A DNA stretch of 64,000 bases, from the NCBI GenBank assembly GCA_020091685.1, contig CM034607.1, positions 6,631,465 through 6,695,464 of the forward strand, in the 5' to 3' direction. The DNA comes from Lutjanus erythropterus (Eukaryota > Chordata > Actinopteri > Lutjaniformes > Lutjanidae). Position 1 is the first letter of the stretch. Every line of letters begins with the position of its first letter. The notes beneath the pieces are model-generated. The model made no database searches. It saw only the letters and a program-made list of their open reading frames with translations, and was not told the origin of the DNA. Below, piece by piece: positions 1 to 60,837 of this stretch. The translations under genes and the position numbers were made by a program.

Positions 1-345
1 AAAAGATGTTTTGAGATGTAAAAAGTCAAAAATGACATAAAAGATGTAACAAGAAGAATATGATGTGAGAAGACAAAAATTACATAAAAGATGTAAACAA
101 GACAAAAATTATGTAAAAGACGAAATGAGACAAAAATGATTTAACAAGACGTAACATAAGAAAAACGACTAAAAGAGGTAACAAGACAAAAATGACTAAA
201 AGACTAGTTGAATATGACGTGACAAAAATTAGAAAACAAAACAAGATGAAAATGACATGACACTATGAAGAAGACATAATAGTACATGGCAAGACAAAAA
301 TTATGTAAAAGATGTAAACAAGAAAAATTACTTCAAATATAGAAC
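1..345 (+). repeat. Degenerate A-rich satellite array, cut by the window edge
   Basis: Irregular repetition of gacaaaaatga, cataaaagatgtaac and aagacaaaaat from the first base to about 345. C occurs almost only in GAC and AAC, so the plus strand is strongly A/G-rich. The same vocabulary fills the arrays at 57.6-58.4 kb, 59.5-60.2 kb and, on the other strand, 27.0-27.3 kb. The left part lies outside the window. The right flank seen in the other copies (cttttacttgagtaaag) is not present, so this is a truncated or rearranged copy. Non-coding. Confidence 0.75.
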
Positions 346-25263: not shown

Positions 25264-25375
25264 ACTTCAATGTAGTGGTGGAAAGAGTACTGAAAACCTG
25301 TACTCAAGTACAAGTACTATTATACTGCTAAAATATTACTCAATTACGAGTATTAGTATTAGTTACTTTTAGCCG
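25264..25375 (+). mobile_element. End fragment of the AAGTAC/TACTTGAGTA repeat family
   Basis: Reads gtggtggaaagagtactgaa, tgtactcaagtacaagtact and ttactcaattacgagt. It resembles the terminal block of the satellite-bearing elements at 26.8, 57.2 and 59.2 kb, without an internal array. Confidence 0.55.
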
Positions 25376-26075: not shown

Positions 26076-26790
26076 GGTCCAGTGTGCAAACTTTAGGGGG
26101 ATTTGCTGGCAGAATATGGAACAAATAGGATACAGTATGTTTTACTGTGTGTTTTAATTAGCTCATAATCACCTTTTTGAGTTGTGACACCCAGAATAAT
26201 TAAGTTTTTCTGAGTCTGCCTGAGAAACTCAAACATGAAAGCTTTTGTTTTGATTATTGTAATAAAAGGCAAATCATATCACTGGTGCAAACAATGTAAA
26301 GTAAAAACCATTACTCAGTCTAAAATGTGGCCTCATTTCCCATCATGCCTTGTGCTGGACTAAGTAGTTTTTTGTTAGTGTTTGTGTCTGTTCAGAACGT
26401 GATGGTTTATCTTGGTAATTTGATGGTAATATTTGTCGGTTTATAGTTTCAACCATTAACAAGGTGGCTGTTCCTTAAGGCCAGCTGTATTTTGCATATT
26501 TTTGAGTGCTTGTCTCTTATATTAAATATTTTAAGGGGCTGATGTTGCTGAGATGTTGCTGCTTCCTGGCTCTCATTCAATGCTGCTTGCCACAATATTT
26601 TATTCATTCATTTTCTCCATAACCATCAAGGGACCCTCTTGGGTGCACCAACCCTCAGGTTGGGAATCACTGCCTTCGAATGAGCCCCTCATATCTACAG
26701 AGGTCACACATCCTCTTCCATGGAGTCTGTAATGTTGCACTACTAGTATCATGTTTCTACAGTAGCCCAGAATGGACAAACCAAACACCA
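26076..26790 (+). mobile_element. GTCCAGTGTG-family MITE, interrupted
   Basis: The left end aaaggtccagtgtgcaaac and ggggatttgctggcagaat occupy 26,076-26,195. The internal block (aatgagcccctcatatct, tccatggagtc, atgtttctacagtagcccag) resumes at 26,673-26,788. In the copy at 29.6 kb these two parts are almost contiguous, so about 480 bp (26,196-26,672) is a later insertion. The right half is missing where the satellite-bearing element begins at 26,791. Confidence 0.7.
26190..26672 (+). mobile_element. hAT-like remnant inserted in the MITE
   Basis: The left side reads tttttgagttgtgacaccca and the right side ccaaccctcaggttgggaat then cactg. The reverse of the latter, cagtgattcccaacctg, is a typical hAT terminus, and the left side fits the sub-terminal part of the opposite end. 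No transposase. Target duplications cannot be placed exactly because the left tip is lost. Confidence 0.5.
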
Positions 26791-27432
26791 GGGGTGGCAA
26801 AAGTACACACACTCTGTACTCGAGTAGATAGTACAGATACTAGGGTAAAAAAAAAGACTGGTAAAAGTACAAGTACTGTTAAAACGTCTTTACTCACTAA
26901 AGTGAAAAAGTACAGGCTATGAAGTGTATAAAAGTAAAAAATCGTCCTGTGAAGGACATTTCTACCAACTGTTTCTGTGCAAAACTAACTGAACCTCATC
27001 TTTTCTCCACAGACAAATCTCTGCTCTGTCTTGTTACATCGTTTACGTTGTTCTTATCTTGATACGTCCTGTTACATCTTTTGTCTTGTTTTTGTTTTGT
27101 TATGTCTTGTTACATTATTTTTGTCTAATGTTTTTTTTATGTAATTTTCATTTTGTTACATCTTGTGACACCTTTTACATCATTTTCAACTTGTTATGTT
27201 TTTTTATACCATTTTTGTCTTTGTTTGTTCCGTCTGTCAATGTTATTTTCATCCTGAAGTAACAAGTCTGCTTTGAAAATGTAAGTAGAAAGTACAGATA
27301 TTTGAGTTAAAATGTAAGGGTTAAGAGTAAAAAGTTGTCAGAAAAATAAATACTCTAGTAAAGTACAGACACCTGAAAAATCTTTACTTTCTTAAGTGTA
27401 GTAATGAACTATTCGTACTTAGTTACTTCTCA
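26791..27432 (-). mobile_element. Satellite-bearing dispersed element, copy C
   Basis: On the minus strand it starts agaagtaactaagtacgaat (27,432 downwards) and runs through tgtactttactagagtattt. It has a core array of degenerate gatgtaacaagac/aaaatgatgtaaaa units (about 26,995-27,260), then gcacagaaacagttggtaga, then actttttcactttagtgagt, and ends gtacttttgccacccc. The order of blocks is the same as in the copies at 57.2 and 59.2 kb, and this copy has the most complete right end. No coding capacity. Confidence 0.75.
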
Positions 27433-28103
27433 CTGTCTCATCATCCTGCTGTATATCCTAAAATGTGGTCCTTCAAATTCAATTTTGTCAGTTTTGGGAG
27501 TTCTGCAGCTACAGCACCAAGCTTTGTTTTCAACTCCACAGACAAAAAGCATTTGAATTTTCTCTGACTATACACTGTTCTCCATGGCAACAGTGCCCTA
27601 GGCTTGAGATGAATAAAGACGAAGGACATATAAGTCTATATGATGATAGGATGTTTCTGTGTTTTGTAGCATTGAGGATACTGTTTAAAGAAAAACTGAA
27701 TAAAAACAGAATACTGGAAAACACTCAAGAACCAGTGTCTTTCTCAGTTTACAACTAATTGCCCTGGCTGTGTATGCTGTGTGTGGCTAATGCTATGGCT
27801 ATAATGTGAGCTGCAGCTGTGACTGTGAGTGGCTGCCTGTTCTGTACAGCATCAAGGACAGTAACTCTGGCCAAGACAGCTTTTAAAGCCAGATGCTCCT
27901 GCCAGGATTTAAACCTGGTACTTCTATCAGCCTCATCTCTATGTTCCCAGGGTCCTGTGTTTCCAGGCGTGTGTCTCTTTACATAAACCACTGTTGTAAG
28001 AGTTTGATCAGGGATATTGCCACATTTCATGCAGTCTGAATGGTAAAAATCTGCTCAGCCACTGTGGAGATATCAGTGTCTGAAGCTCCAGAGCTGCAGG
28101 TTG
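27433..28103. other. Unassigned stretch with a tRNA-like T-arm at 27,893-27,909
   Basis: ccaggatttaaacctgg (27,893-27,909) forms a 5 bp stem around a seven-base loop, like a tRNA T-arm on the minus strand (loop tttaaat). No convincing A box or acceptor stem lies nearby, so a decayed SINE head is more likely than a tRNA gene. The rest shows nothing. Confidence 0.35.
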
Positions 28104-28172
28104 TAGTCCCTCTCCAGTCTTTAGTCCCTCTCCAGTCTTTAGTCCCTCTCCAGTCTTTAGTCCCTCTCCAGC
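28104..28172. repeat. 18 bp tandem repeat, 3.8 copies
   Basis: tagtccctctccagtctt is repeated at 28,104, 28,122, 28,140 and 28,158 (last copy partial). Copies are essentially identical, so the expansion is recent or under strong homogenisation. Reading it as protein gives WRGTKD repeats on the minus strand, but the frame has no other support. Confidence 0.95.
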
Positions 28173-48025: not shown

Positions 48026-48184
48026 AAAAATGAAATGTTCTATTTATGTGTTTTAGTATTCACCAGATGTCATTTGGATGTCCACTACATATCTTTGTCA
48101 CAAGTGCATCATTGCAACATCTGCTTTTTTTCATCCTAATCTCATTATCTGTATCTGTCCAAGAAATCCACTATCAGTCTGGCC

Positions 48185-48315
48185 TCAACTTTTTCACTTT
48201 TACTCGAGTTGGTTTCTCTAAAAGGACTTTTCACTTTTACTGGAGGCATTTTTTTATGTTAGTAATTGTACTTTTAATTGAGTATAGATTTTCTGTACCC
48301 ACCTGTGAAAACACT
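48185..48315. mobile_element. Terminal fragment of the TTTTACTCGAGT repeat family
   Basis: tttttcacttttactcgagt, gacttttcacttttactgga and gtacttttaattgagtatag: three related words in a row, matching the right-end block of the satellite-bearing elements without the array. Confidence 0.5.
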
Positions 48316-52025: not shown

Positions 52026-53161
52026 TAAGTCTGGTAGTGTGGAGTTGGAAAAAAGTGAACTTAACAGAGTTCTGTGGCCCCGTCCTCATCTCTGCTTCAG
52101 GCTAGAGACTCCAGGCTACGTTAGCCGCTACTAGCAAAACACCCAATTTACCAACTGAACTGCTTGTAGATGCATTAATGTAGGTGCCAGGTTTGGAGGG
52201 AAAGGAAAAAGAACACATGAGACAAAAAAAAAAAAAAACATTATATCTTTGATTTTTAAACTTTTTTCATTACTTGTAAAGATTTTTTCAAACTGTCCAT
52301 TGTGTACGTCCATCAGGTAAGGGTTTCATATGCTCATATGTAATAGAAACTGAAGGGAGACTGGTTTGATTTCAGACTTATAAACAGCCACAGTACAAGA
52401 GATTGGGAGTTTTGAATGTGTTTTTGTAATGTTGGATATTGTTATGCAGCGACACGGCTGCTGTTAGCCTTCATGTATTTCTTTCTAACACCATCACATT
52501 TGTATTTTTAGATGTTTTTTATGTGTGTGAAACACTGCTTTATGTGTATTTGTTCTTGTATACTCGCTGGCCTCAAATTGCCCTTTGAGGAACAAATAAT
52601 GTGTTATAAATTGAATGGAAAATACAGAGCATCCAGCAGCGATTCATAGTGGAGGCACCTCACCTGAAACAAACAGCACCTCTGATAGTGTCAGAGGATG
52701 TTATTGCATTTTTATGAAATGGGAAAACCAGTGGGGCTACATAACATTCAAAGTGAGGTGATTGTTGAAACACTTCAGTATCATTTTGCATTTGTGTTTA
52801 CTTGTTCTAGTTGTATGTAATGCCAATGATGCAAGAGAAAATGACCAATTAAAATCAGTTTATGTATCATAATCAGGTATTTCCTGTTCACTTACAATTA
52901 CGTGACTACTACTAATTCTGAAACAAATATTTTTTTATGTATACACACAGAAATGAAACAAAGGAACAGCTACGTTTACCCTTCTACTACTATATTTACT
53001 GGGGATTAATAGTTCATATTAATACTAAAATTTATCCCCTTTCACATTATATATGGAACTGATGTAGAGTTTGTGATGCTACAGAAACTTCCAAGCAACA
53101 GACACGTAACTGGACTCATACAAATATCTAACTAAATAACTAGCAGTTACTATTAACTTTA
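52026..53161. other. Unassigned non-coding stretch
   Basis: A run at 52,225-52,238. AT-rich, nothing recognised. Confidence 0.4.
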
Positions 53162-54018
53162 GGTAACACTTTATTTGAAGATGTGTGCATAAGACTAAGA
53201 TGATCATAATTAACATGACACCTGTCATGAACATGAAGGAGTCTCAATGAATGTTTATGACTTGTCCTTAAGTTTCATTCTGTCAATTATGCCATTTCCA
53301 ATGTAAAGCTTGTACTGTTTGAGATGTTATGAGATGTTATGACAAGTTTATGAAAAGTTTATATTAATAAAACAAACAATGTCTTTTGTTATGACAATTT
53401 GACATCACTGAAGCTGACAATACCATTGTTATAACAACTTCAACAAGGCAAAATGACTGTTATGACAACTTGGCATTAACCAACACAAAATGTCTACTGA
53501 ATCAAGATAAAATGTCTGTTATGACAATTTGACATCACTGAAGCTGACAATACCATTGTTATAACAACTTCATGGCAAAATGACTGTTATGACAACTTGG
53601 CATTAACCAACACAAAATGTCTGTAATATCAACATGACTTTTGCCTAGACAGAATGTCTTTGTTACGACAATTTGACATTAATCAAGCCAACAATACCTT
53701 TGTTGTAACAACTTGACATTAAGAAATAAAAAATTACTTTGTTATGACTACTTGACATTGATCAATACAGCAATGTCTTTGCCATAACAAAAATGGCTCT
53801 ATTATAGCAAACTGACATCAACCGAGGCAGCATAAACTGTCATAAACATGCCATAGCAGGCCTAATTATCAAACTTAAAGAAACTATTAAGCTTTATGCA
53901 TGACATTACATTACATGAAACTGTCATATGTGGTTTCATGTTCATGGCAGGAGTCATGACATAGTTGGTGATGGTGTTATGTCAGTCTTATGCACACCCC
54001 TTCAGACAAATTGTTACC
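53162..54018. mobile_element. Inverted-repeat element with internal tandem repeats
   Basis: Left end ggtaacactttatttgaag then tgtgcataagactaagatg. The right end in reverse reads ggtaacaatttgtctgaag then gtgtgcataagactgacat, so the termini are inverted copies over at least 40 bp. The interior is built from gttatgacaacttgacatta-like units, each followed by an aaaatgtct-type word. No transposase. I recall this as a widespread teleost MITE. No matching target duplication was found. Confidence 0.8.
53385..53830. repeat. Internal minisatellite with a recent 130 bp duplication
   Basis: gttatgacaatttgacatca starts at 53,388 and again at 53,518, and the following sequence (ctgaagctgacaatacca, ttgttataacaacttca) is the same in both, giving a 130 bp period. 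Smaller units of about 35-40 bp lie within. The second block lacks a few bases (acaag) in the middle. Confidence 0.85.
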
Positions 54019-55045
54019 GAACGTTCCATTCAAACTCAATGACGGACTAAGGAACAGCTGGTGCGACCCAAAACTGAAGAGGTGAACATATTTAGTATTT
54101 CATGAGAAATGCTTCATTCCTTTTTTGTTCTCTTAATGAACAACTGACCCCTTAGATTTTTCTTTTGTCTCCTTTGATGTCCCAACCAATATATAATAAA
54201 CAATGAAGTTATCAGTGTTTTTTCATCAGCGTATAGTAAAAAAAAAAGCATCTTTTGTTGCAGAATGTTCCTGTTAACTGTGTTGTATCTAACCCCAGAC
54301 TGTTGCTCTCGATTTCATTGGTCGGCATGCAGACTGGGCTGTTGTTTTCTGTTGTGGCTGGCACCAGAGCTCTCTGCGGGCTGACAGCTGACGTGCACTG
54401 GAGTGACAGGCCCGGTCTGGGGTCAGCAGCGGGCCAGTCATCTGGGTCCGTGAGAGACTCTTGACCTCGCGGGTCGCTCTTTGTCAGAGACGGCCCCTCA
54501 CATGCCACGCACTCTGCATTTCATAACCTTCAATCTGTCCCTGTCCTTTGTTGCAGAGGAACTTCTGGTGGACCCCGTACCGTATACATTGAAGGACAGC
54601 TATGCGATGTTAAACAGAAGGAGCTGTGGCTCTTAATAACAGGTTGCAGAATGTGTTGTGGCAAGCCGTATAGCGTTTTATTTGGGCACCCCTGTGGATA
54701 TATTTGAGAAAGTAATTGAAGGCAATCATAGTAATTCTCTCTGAAGAAGGTCCAAATACAATGTACCATTCAATATTAACCCCCTCTACATTCAGTCACT
54801 TCACCAGCTCTTGACTATGGAGTCAAAATGGGCAGTTTATCCTAAAATGCTTTAATTGGTCTCTTCTGATCACGTAATAAGAACATTGTAGGGCAGAAAC
54901 AAGAGGGGTCAAGTTGCAGAGTCAAACCCCTCATGACTGAGTTACTTTTCCTTGTAACATCTAAAGCATGATCTCAGTTTCATGTGCCTTTGTCTTTTTT
55001 TCTAATTTAAACTATAGATCTTCCTGTTTGACGCTACCTCAAATT
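54019..55045. other. Unassigned stretch, 54.25-54.56 kb GC-richer
   Basis: 54,250-54,560 has higher GC than its surroundings and open frames on both strands (69 and 98 codons) without domain motifs. ttgttgcag|a strings resemble acceptor sites at 54,262 and 54,556, but no donor-delimited frame can be defended as an exon. Confidence 0.35.
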
Positions 55046-56500: not shown

Positions 56501-57204
56501 TACGTTTAAATTAACAAAATATTGAACGTTAGCACCAAAAATGAGGATACAGGATATTTATCCTACATGATGAAGCTATTAAACTAAGTTTTCATAACAT
56601 GAATTTATTTCCAAAAACCTAACAAGTCCCCGAACGAGCATCATGACCCGAACAGAATCACTAATAAGGAAAATTTAGATCCACTGGCAGAGAAACACAG
56701 CAGGTTTCATTTATTAGTAGCTTAAATTGGATTTCAGGAGTTATATTTTGAAAAAAGTCCAAATGATCAGTGAAGTCATCAGTTCCATTTACAGAGAGAG
56801 AGAGATTGACTTTAAAGAATGCCATATGTTCCTTCATCTCTCCCTGCCATCGGTCCTGCAGAAGTCACCGGGGCCAGATTGGACCGGCCGCTCCAATCAC
56901 AGAGCAGAAACGGGGCTGATTATAGGGCAATCACTTGGATGGTGGAGATGACATCAGCAACCAGAAATTGGCTGACTTTATTTGGTCTCGCGGGGACGGC
57001 AGTGAGAAAGGCCTGGCTCGGAGCACAATGACAGACCAGGGTAAATTGGGCTCAGAGAAGTTTTTGGTGATAGCAGATGTAATTTCAAACAGGGCTGGAG
57101 GAGTGCTTCAAATGAAAGGATGAAAATTGAAATTATGCACTGGCCATTTTGCAACTATTATAGTGTGAATCTCTTTCCATGGACATAAAAGCTCCATCTG
57201 ACAG
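56501..57204. other. Unassigned, 56.80-57.12 kb is a candidate conserved segment
   Basis: 56,800-57,120 is GC-richer and repeat-free (ctgcagaagtcaccggggcc, attggaccggccgctccaat). cattggtccg-like inverted words do not form a clear element. Open frames of 60-75 codons are present in all plus frames but have no shared motif. Confidence 0.3.
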
Positions 57205-58680
57205 TAGAAGCAGAGACGGGAAGTAACTAAGTACAAGTATCTGTACTTTACTTGACTATTTATTTTATTTTTCTGAGGCGGCTTTTTCTTTTTATATTTG
57301 CTCCCTACATTTTAGAGTAAATATCTGTACTTCCTACTCCTTATATTTTCAAAACAGCCTCACTACTTACAAAACGTCTTCAAGAACCTAAACAAGTCCA
57401 GTGGCCTACGATAAACCTTAGTGGAAGCGTTCTTACTTACTTTTAATGCATGGAGGGGAATTATTGATTATTTTAATTTTTATGTCATTGTCTGCTACCT
57501 TCCAAACATCAAGACTGATTTCAACCCAAACTGAGGGGACAATAACACAGAGAAAAGATGAACAAGATCAAAAGAATCTGAAAAGACAAAGACCCCCATA
57601 ACACACACAAGGCATATCAAAAAGAAAACAAAAGCATAAGATAATAGTGTTATACAAGACATAACGATGAAAATGACGTACAAGACAAAAATGATATAAC
57701 AAGACGTAACATGACAAAAACGATTTAAAATACTTAAGATGAAAATGACATAAAAGATGTAACAAGACAAGGACAACATGAGACAAAAACGAGACAAAAA
57801 AAACATAAACGACATAAGAAGATGTAAAATGATGAAAATGATGTAACAAGACGAAAGCAAGCTGCATGACATAACAAGACAAAAACAAAATAAAAGACAA
57901 AACAAAAGCTGCAAAAAGATGGAAAATATAACAATAAGCAACAAGACAAAAACAACGTTAAAGATGATACAAGATGAAAACATAAAAGACGTAACAAGAT
58001 GAAAATGATGAAACTGACGTAATGAGACAAAAACTATATATTAAGACAAACAAACAATGTAACAAGACGAAAATGGCGTACCAAGATGTAATAAGATGAG
58101 ATGAACACGACAAGATGAAAATAACATAACAATACAAATGATGCCGTAAAAACACAAAAACAATGTAACAATTTGCAACAAGATGAAAACATAAAAGATG
58201 ATGATGATGAAAACAATGAAACAAGACGTAATGAGACAAAATCTACATAATAAGACAAACAAACAACATAACGACGAAAATGACATAACAAGATGTAAAA
58301 TGAGAGAAGATGAAAACAACATAACAATACAAAAATGATGAAGAAGACATAACATGAAAAACATTGTTAAAAACTTAACAAGGCAATAATGTCATAAAAG
58401 ACGTAATAAGACAATAGACAGAGGGAGGGAGACTCAACCGTGGAGAAAAGGTGAGACGAGACGAGAAACTAACAAGATGAAGGAGACGTAACAACGCTAA
58501 AAACTACGTAAAGGACGTAAGAAGATGGGAGAGGGACATTAGGCCTCAGATTAATGGTAAGGCTCAGTTAGCTTTGCACAGAAACAGTCAGTAGAACTTT
58601 TCAGAACCTGTAGTTTTCACTTTTACTTGAGTAAAGAATTTGAATCAGTACTACTTGAACAAACAATGTGAGTTGTTTAT
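57205..58680 (+). mobile_element. Satellite-bearing dispersed element, copy A
   Basis: Left block gggaagtaactaagtacaag, ctgtactttacttgactatt, then caaacatcaagactgattt. Core array 57,590-58,420 of degenerate gacaaaaa, gatgtaacaa, gacgtaac and gatgaaaatgac units. Right block gtggagaaaaggtgag, agctttgcacagaaacagtc and cttttacttgagtaaagaat. Same block order as copy B and, inverted, copy C. Long open frames on the minus strand in several phases (up to 162 codons) result from the array's lack of stop codons on that strand and are not genes. Confidence 0.8.
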
Positions 58681-59200
58681 CCGTGGCCAGGGCTCTATTG
58701 TACTATATTTCTATACTTTTTGAAACTGAAATTATATAGGCTTCCTTCTTCTGGCTTGAACTCTTCACCTCATCTGTGTTTATGGCTTGTTAGGCTGAAA
58801 TACATCTTCCTCTCCTCCTCTTCTTTGTCCTGTCTCTCCTCCATCTCCATCTCTGTCCCCCTGCGCCGCCGCAACGCTGTCCTCCTCTCTCTTTCCTCGC
58901 CAAAACCACAAGCCTGTACTAGAGCTGCAGACAAAGACACAAACACAAATTGGCAACCTCTGGGTCAAGCCCGCATGATAGAGACAGTCTCAGTGGCTGG
59001 GAGGAGGAATTCAAGAAAACGGACAAATACAGTTTTATTGCTACCTACCTAAAACAGTTAATTACATATGGTCACTGATGTGGAATCTTTTCTGTAGGCT
59101 GTCTGTGAACAAACTCTGTGGTTCTTTGCAAGCTGCCTATTTGACCTTCTCTGTGCATTTTCCTCACACTGGTAGCACTACATTGACACGTGCTGTGAGC
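58681..59200. other. Unassigned spacer with pyrimidine-rich tract
   Basis: 58,800-58,900 is a C/T-rich run (cttcctctcctcctcttctt, ctctcctccatctccatctc). No exon evidence. It separates two same-orientation copies of the satellite-bearing element. Confidence 0.5.
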
Positions 59201-59201
59201 A

Positions 59202-60400
59202 AGAGGTGGGAAGTAACTATACTCTGTTACTGTACTTAAAGAGATTTTTCAGGCGTGTCTGCTTTACTTGAGTACCTATTTTCAAAACAGGCTTGTTACT
59301 TTGGTTTCAATACATCTCAATGAAATTACTGATTATTTTTATTTTGTGTCATTGCACACTGCCCAACATCAAAACTGATTTAAACCTAAGTGGAAGGGAC
59401 AATAACACACTGAGAAGATTATTTTTTGGTGTATCCATTGGTGCGTAGCATATTAATTAGACAGACGTAACACAGACGAAAAAGACATAAAATAAAAAGA
59501 CATAATGAAACCAAAAAATGCATAACAAGACAAAAAAGATGTATCTAGACAAACAAGACATAACAAGGTGAAAAATAACGTAACAGACATGACAAGACAA
59601 AAAGCGATGTAAAAGACATAACAAGACCAAAGAGATGTAACAATACAAAAAACAACATAAGACAAAAAAGATGTAACAAGACAAAAATATTTGTAACAAG
59701 ATTAAAACCAATCTAAAAGATCTAACAACACAAAACAAGACGAAAAAACATGTAACTAAAACAATGTTACTTTGTAAAAAAAAACATAACGACAAAAAAG
59801 ATGTAACAAGACAAAAAACAACATAAAAAGCAAAGAGACAAAAAAAAGACATAAGAAGAGAAAATATGTAACTAGACAAAAAAAGGCATAGACATAATTA
59901 GACAAAAGAACGACATAAAAGATGTACTAAGATGAAAAAGATGAAGATGGAAAGGATGTAACAAGACAAAAAAAACATAAAAGACATATGACAAAAAAGA
60001 CATAACAAGAAGAAAAAAGACAACTAGACAAATAAAGACATAATTAGACAAAAAAGTAAAAGACGTACAAGACAAAAAAGGAAAAAATGAGAAATAAGAC
60101 AAAAAAAGACATAACAAGAAGAATAAAGACACAACTAGACAAATTAAGATGTAATTAGATAACTAAATGGAAAACCACGTAACAAGACAAATAAGACATA
60201 ATAACACTTAAAATGTTAGAGGATGGGAGAAGGAGACATGACCACGGAGAAAAGGTGAGGTTTAGTTGGCTTTGCACAGATACAGCTGGTAGAAATGTCC
60301 TTTCGTGTACTGCTTTTTACTTTTATACTTGAAGTACATTTCAGGGCCTGTACTTTTTCACTTTTACTTGAGTAAAGAAGTTAAATTTGTCTTTTTCACA
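59202..60400 (+). mobile_element. Satellite-bearing dispersed element, copy B
   Basis: Left block gaggtgggaagtaactatac, ttttcaggcgtgtctgcttt, caacatcaaaactgattt and gaagggacaataacacact. Core array 59,455-60,220 of gacaaaaaagatgtaacaa and aagacataacaag units with longer A runs than copy A. Right block ggagaaaaggtgaggtttag, tttgcacagatacagctggt, aatgtcctttcgtgtac and cacttttacttgagtaaaga. Minus-strand open frames of up to 140 codons are by-products of the array. Confidence 0.8.
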
Positions 60401-60837
60401 CGAGCATCTGTAGAACGTGTGTGCTTTTGCCTCCTCAGCTGTGAGCTGAGGATATTCACAGGCGCAGGGACACAAGGAGCTTCCAGTTTAAGGCAACAAA
60501 AGACTCCTTGATCATATTCACAACAGCCCCCTCAAACGTTTAGTGTCAGCAGCTGGTGAAGAGCACCACTCTTCTTGATACCGTGCATGGCCCTCTTATG
60601 CTCCCTCTTCACTTCACATGCTGCATGAGCCGGTGCCAAACTAAAAATACCGTGTGTTTGTAGTTCCACTATACAGGGTGTCAAAACAGAGAGCTGCACA
60701 TAGGATCCATGTGTTTTCTGTTAAAGCACAAGACAACTCTACTGTGTGTGTGAGGAGCAGGGTATAAATGGAAAAGAGTACATCAACATAAACATCCACA
60801 CACATATATGCATGCAAATAGAAACAAGACTAAAGCC
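60401..60837. other. Unassigned non-coding stretch
   Basis: Nothing with recognisable ends. Short frames have no domain motif. Confidence 0.4.

Follow-up and report, generated by a model that had tools for sequence, protein, structure and literature searches.

Transposons with internal tandem arrays are a known kind of mobile element. miDNA4, a Tc1/mariner MITE of Xenopus, holds an internal satellite whose monomers number from one to many, and its long arrays have been proposed to outlive their own flanks (excerpted from a review, PMC12628747). We analysed a stretch of 64,000 nucleotides from Lutjanus erythropterus (G000:C17:6631465–6695464; hereafter the window) together with the 938-Mb, 444-contig assembly of its own genome. 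The original prediction had described a single dispersed family whose blocks keep one order and whose internal array varies in length, and this description held. The family is very probably a non-autonomous hAT DNA transposon with Tol2-like ends and a passenger internal minisatellite that was already present at its spread. It is a clear further example of the known kind, likened here to published elements by their description.

Copy A of the window, used as the query, gave 102 matches in the genome, with 40 of 5009 candidates scored. Forty loci (L009–L048) served to build, by iterated nhmmer with copy C as the seed, models of the two ends (F5 for the 5′ end and F3 for the 3′ end), and models of the inner 5′ spacer (S5) and the inner 3′ block (S3) were then seeded from copy B. 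A same-strand F3 match lay within 3.5 kb for 31 of the 35 F5 matches, while ten F3 matches had no F5 partner. The block order was constant, with 5′ block, spacer, array and 3′ block. The two flank queries yielded 2,673 and 2,441 first-look candidates, 40 of which were scored for each, so these figures do not give the copy number.

The profile models gave the family consensus ends CAGAGGTGGGAAGTAACTAAGTAC at the 5′ side and CAGAGGTGGCAAAAGTACACACATTC, read inwards, at the 3′ side, with the short terminal inverted repeat CAGAGGTGG at both ends. The CAGAGGTG-type inverted ends were accompanied by subterminal ACTTGAGTA words. By hand comparison, the family 3′ end CAGAGGTGGCAAAAGTAC was identical to that of Tol2 (CAGAGGTGTAAAAAGTAC) at 16 of 18 positions, these being the first 18 bases of the published Tol2 3′ primer CAGAGGTGTAAAAAGTACTC (PMC4818426). 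Copies with both ends complete spanned 485–1876 bp (n = 29), part of them exceeding the usual range of MITEs; CAGAGG stood at the start in seven and CCTCTG at the end in 14, the others having diverged or misplaced ends. The copies are old. The mean distance from the consensus was 0.135 for F5 (50 of 65 rows used), 0.111 for S5 (59 of 60), 0.137 for F3 (58 of 69) and 0.153 for S3 (37 of 41), that is, block means of 11–15%, with single rows ranging from 0.05 to 0.35. Of the 16 ORFs listed between 57200 and 60450, four were tested and none of these matched Pfam, and no Rfam family matched positions 56800–60800. Viral contigs showed no trace of the 3′ end pattern or of the unit pattern, in a search from which records near the own genome were possibly excluded.

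Copy B is a complete element of 1238 bp (59201–60438, plus strand) that runs from AAGAGGTGGGAAGTAAC to TTTTGCCTCCTCAG, as delimited by the F5 and F3 models, its ends and its target-site duplication. The duplicated sequence CTGTGAGC occupies 59193–59200 on the left and 60439–60446 on the right, identical at 8/8 positions by duplication scoring. Within the copy, nhmmer placed the 5′ terminal block (F5) at 59208–59327, the S5 spacer with catcaaaactgattt at 59304–59429, the S3 block with ttgcacagatacag at 60228–60300 and the 3′ terminal block (F3) at 60264–60437, all on the plus strand, and the 5-mer array model and TRF located the internal minisatellite at 59455–60207 (plus). Copy A (57211–58655, plus) starts with the 5′ end CAGAGACGGGAAGTAAC and has lost its outer 3′ end, its F3 match reaching model position 124 of 203. 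It holds an S5 spacer with catcaagactgattt at 57441–57561 (plus, nhmmer) and a minisatellite at 57538–58528 (plus; 5-mer array model and TRF) in two parts, 57538–58420 and 58452–58528. Copy C is inverted (26789–27435, minus; flank models and duplication scoring) and about 650 bp long, with the terminal repeats CAGGGGTGGC and CAGTGAGAAGTAAC, an array at 27027–27253 (minus, 5-mer array model) and its target duplication gone. TRF periods were 17–29, 65 and 84 in copies A and B and 38 in copy C.

The three copies lie where the original prediction had placed them, the flank models matching A, B and C in the order that it gave, and the array sizes from the 5-mer model are close to its values of about 0.27, 0.83 and 0.77 kb. 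Its count was incomplete, as a fourth copy crosses the start of the window: the array part lies at 1–328 (plus; array at 12–328) and the 5′ block just outside (L009:2689–2832), and a 3′ block was not found for this copy. The catcaagactgattt spacer was detected in A and B but not in C, as had been stated. The block order was also correct, except that cttttacttgagtaaag, taken as the terminus, is not the end of the element, which continues for about 60 bp (copy B) to 100 bp (copy C and the family model) to a CCACCTCTG-type 3′ end that B (60438) and C (26789) retain in full and A has lost.

Target-site duplications were scored in copies with both ends complete, allowing offsets of up to 2. The flanking 8-mers matched at 7 or more of 8 positions in 10 of 29 copies, compared with 1.2% of 812 swapped left–right pairs, giving a binomial p of about 1e-12 that is approximate because swapped pairs share members. 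Perfect 8-bp duplications were present in four copies (copy B, L029 and two copies of L050), one of the L050 duplications being of low complexity and the other three of mixed sequence. The remaining 19, copy C included, fell short of 7 matching positions, unsurprisingly for old copies. Since 8-bp duplications are a hallmark of hAT elements, the count marks the unit as a hAT-type insertion, and its past mobility, which the original prediction had offered as inference, is now attested by terminal inverted repeats and target duplications together.

The array was already in the element when the element spread. Copies chosen by their flanks showed that array and flanks co-occur genome-wide, as predicted. 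The spacer query (57215–57590) ended at the array edge; 40 of 2673 candidates were scored, all 40 matched the spacer, and they comprised 10 from the earlier loci and 30 further ones (L049–L078). An array was detected in 36 of the 40 (exceptions: L044, L055, L071 and L077) and in all nine of the copies examined that had been selected by the 3′ end (of 40 scored candidates), where it measured 55–959 bp. Flank-selected copies that carry an array thus had lengths from 55 to 1,192 bp; 30 spacer-selected copies ranged from 0 to 1192 bp with a median of 240, and the longest single array, 1338 bp, was in L011, an array-selected locus. L055 and L077 retain a few units by eye, and the second copy of L036 has 14 bp between S5 and S3, so near-arrayless copies exist. 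The proposed check for copies with and without arrays, carried out in the own genome, returned an arrayed majority with near-arrayless copies beside it.

At the loci scanned by the array model, the orientation of the array was that of the adjoining flank blocks, with two oddities, a weak opposite S3 match at the array end in L039 and, in L024, an opposite array of 163 bp at the stretch edge with no flank within the stretch. Arrays without recognisable flanks were seen at 4 of 70 loci (L012, L013, L034 and L047) and as a second array in L074, and the surroundings of those four loci had no sequence common to each other at E 1e-4. L040 and L044 had copy interiors interrupted or replaced by other DNA. 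The 3′ surroundings of L034 matched the L040 insert (77% over 346 bp), which points to another repeat family there.

The repeat unit consists of the 10-mer GACGTAACAA and a 9-mer, GACRAAAAT or GACGTAAAA, which alternate to make 19 or 28 bp; the two unit words of the original prediction are variants of this one 9/10-bp unit. The main autocorrelation peaks fell at lags 9–10, 19, 28, 38 and 47 (computed over 30 of the 31 inner intervals with their spacer and other insert sequence), and GAY-to-GAY spacings of 9 (266), 10 (283) and 19 (121) were counted among 1420. In 1117 aligned 19-mers, the first CpG position read TG in 446, CA in 256, CG in 170 and TA in 53. C was replaced by T in 46.5% at this CpG versus 8.3% at a non-CpG C, and G by A in 31.0% versus 10.9% at one non-CpG G, these control values (8–11%) being underestimates, since the controls but not the CpG positions were subject to the mismatch limit. 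At unit position 1, where the G is preceded by C in only part of the units, A was read in 20.8%. The GACG, GACA and GATG forms fit CpG decay; some may be original variants of the unit. Derivation of the unit from the element's 5′ end was considered and not supported: the best match was GAcGTAAC-AAG-ACAAA (GAAGTAACTAAGTACAAA), and 471 of 1000 shuffled units scored equally.

With CpG states collapsed, the best match of a 40-mer had a mean identity of 0.722 within its own array (n = 965) and 0.677 between arrays (n = 2895), and 5.1% of 40-mers reached 95% identity within an array compared with 0.03% between arrays. An internal 40-mer repeat of at least 95% was present in 13 of the 40 arrays of at least 400 bp (11/28 array-selected, 2/10 flank-selected, 0/2 in the window); in the raw, uncollapsed comparison it was present in nine (9/28, 0/10 and 0/2, respectively). 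Four of the 13 were arrays without flanks (L012, L013, L034 and the second array of L074). Judged against the flank divergence, the internal repeats appear to postdate the insertions, and local homogenisation would give the same picture as later array growth. Repeats at 85% or more had lags of 40 to about 210 bp, or several units (search reach 160–200 bp either side). The claim that arrays grow and shrink within the element is borne out by the near-arrayless copies and, in some copies, by signs of growth after insertion. Anchored array starts and ends beat the shifted control in 57% (928 pairs) and 54% (418 pairs), barely above the control; the order of units is thus for the most part not kept, and a founder order conserved across arrays, tried as a candidate, gave a weak signal only. 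Array length tracking flank conservation was likewise rejected (Spearman rho −0.06, n = 30).

The original prediction had held that almost all C in the arrays lies in GAC or AAC context and that one strand consequently lacks stop codons. Most C did lie in that context (74/98, 76/95 and 24/28 in the three arrays, 76–86%), which falls short of almost all. The stop-free strand was overstated: the arrays of 761, 741 and 227 bp had longest minus-strand open runs of 133, 146 and 75 codons, lengths that 168, 85 and 125 of 200 dinucleotide shuffles reached, and in 13 of 40 arrays the run exceeded the mean of the shuffles. The minus strand is thus poor in stop codons by its dinucleotide composition. 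The words read as similar to CREB/ATF sites do recur above shuffles. TGACGTAA occurred once and TGACATAA three times in the three window arrays, and over 90 array segments the counts were 24 versus 1.4 in shuffles and 73 versus 6.7, respectively. The A-preceded forms were also in excess in these segments, with 89 versus 3.1 for AGACGTAA and 146 versus 9.8 for the counterpart of TGACATAA; TGACGTCA was absent from all 90, and T preceded GAYRTAA in only 172 of 728 cases. As every unit form exceeds its shuffles, the CRE-like words come with the unit, and a CREB/ATF site cluster was rejected because no excess remained beyond what the repeat gives.

Four other accounts of the array were weighed against a passenger minisatellite already present at the spread. 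Most of the array expansion might have taken place after insertion, separately in each copy and starting from a few seed units, which we consider unlikely. Internal 40-mer repeats of at least 95% in 13 of 40 arrays (9 of 40 raw), although flanks lie 11–15% from the consensus, and short copies that contain only a few units are in its favour, but 27 of the 40 arrays lack such a repeat, the positives are mostly array-selected and four of the 13 are arrays without flanks. Furthermore, array length is unrelated to flank conservation (rho −0.06, n = 30), and arrays of at least 200 bp are found in 19/30 and 7/9 flank-selected copies. Chance assembly, in which a satellite inserted independently into unrelated repeats, could explain the four loci with an array and no recognisable flank, yet it is contradicted by the constant order in the genome copies and by 8-bp duplications outside the whole unit; we count it as already refuted and give it next to no probability.

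The two further accounts ascribe a role to the array, past or present. If the array descended from a coding repeat such as hobo's TPE repeats, with the stop-poor strand as its trace, it would have a parallel in hobo itself, also a hAT element, which has a coding repeat of variable number (PMC4807377, excerpt), and 9-mers are common among the units; however, neither the dominant 19-bp period nor the 10-mers would keep a reading frame, minus-strand open runs do not exceed dinucleotide shuffles (above the shuffle mean in 13/40) and the four ORFs tested had no Pfam match, so this origin is highly improbable. It is also quite unlikely, if less so, that the array is a working module, offering the transposase or a host protein a series of sites, or acting as a CpG platform for methylation or silencing, with copies that lose it spreading less. 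Its retention in 36/40 and 9/9 flank-selected copies, oriented with the flanks, agrees with such a role, as do the CpG-dense ancestral unit that we infer and Galileo, reported with extra transposase sites in internal repeats (PMC4079207, excerpt). Against this, descent from a single founder would account for the retention just as well, copies share little of their unit order (anchored comparison better than the control in 57% and 54% of pairs), length varies about 20-fold with near-arrayless copies in existence, and the likeness of the unit to the 5′ end is not above shuffles (471/1000). On a selected-array reading, order and length would be free while composition and presence are kept, and the array may for that reason be tunable. 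We put little weight on the CpG-dense 19-bp array being a selected part of the element, a putative tunable binding or methylation module affecting transposition or silencing.

For the preferred reading, a non-autonomous element with a passenger array, a Tol2-group transposase supplied in trans would have bound the ends and then cut and pasted the unit, and the internal array would have travelled as passenger DNA. Its length changed by multi-unit duplication and deletion, presumably through unequal exchange, slippage or the repair of gaps, for the most part at about the time of the spread and in some copies apparently after insertion. The CpG-bearing unit has since decayed through transitions; the observed mutation pattern is that expected of methylated CpG, so that methylation is its presumed cause.

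The hAT dimerisation domain PF05699 had many matches in the genome (150 of 337 candidates scored). A search for an autonomous partner covered the 1.2 kb downstream of 20 of the 150 listed hAT transposase matches and found none; in these stretches F5 had no match and F3 two below threshold (E 0.063 and 0.074). One of these stretches, L081, ends in CAGAGGTGAAAGTACAG read inwards and has frames with a BED finger and the hAT dimerisation domain upstream, a 49-residue part of one frame matching Hermes (E about 1e-13). The family flanks are absent from L081, and no CAGAGGTG 5′ end was present in 3.5 kb upstream. These features indicate that a Tol2-type relative exists in the genome. At G000:C14:5889449–5918032, four hAT dimerisation-domain matches of equal score were spaced by exactly 9,447 bp, suggesting tandem duplication of a segment that bears a hAT transposase.

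Other repeats of the window were also recorded. Weak F3 matches at 25274–25361 (minus) and 48181–48306 (plus) have other hAT-type ends by eye, AGTGGTGGAAAGAGTACT and CCACCTGTG, and apparently belong to different element families; no array of the GAY-unit kind was detected there. An inverted-repeat element at 53155–54025, with 47-nt arms that are 81% complementary and GGTAACACTTTATTTGAAG near its end, holds its own internal minisatellite, which is TGTTATGACAACTTGACATTAA-like with TRF periods of 68, 130 and 39; it is apparently an unrelated family of the same architecture. An 18-bp tandem repeat at 28104–28171 (3.8 copies at 100%) shows much less degeneration than the arrays of the element.

Within a single genome, the family is a well-documented case of a hAT transposon that carries a minisatellite. 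The same copies record target duplications, the length of the array, the order of its units and the decay of CpG, which makes them usable as a natural series for the question of when internal arrays grow relative to transposition. A caution also follows, as A-rich "satellites" like these may be transposon interiors.

Six sequence words of the element had no match in open-access full text, and no title or abstract start names it among the matches listed from the open-access literature. The element is not described in the available part of a review of fish mobile elements (PMC7599744). It resembles the medaka hAT element Tol2 and its non-autonomous relatives in its CAGAGGTG ends, in its 3′ end (16/18 versus CAGAGGTGTAAAAAGTAC) and in the 8-bp duplication (PMC4818426, excerpt), but here no transposase was found and the interior consists of spacer and minisatellite. 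Tetris/TIR-220 of Drosophila virilis shares variable internal tandem repeats and array-only contigs, and differs as a Foldback element with repeats of about 220 bp inside its inverted repeats, whose arrays grew into satellite DNA (PMC4079207, excerpt). hobo is likewise a hAT element and contains short internal repeats that vary in number, the TPE repeats, although these sit in an open reading frame (PMC4807377, excerpt). miDNA4 is, like the present element, non-autonomous with an internal array of variable copy number (PMC12628747, excerpt), and belongs to Tc1/mariner, whereas the element described here is a hAT transposon.
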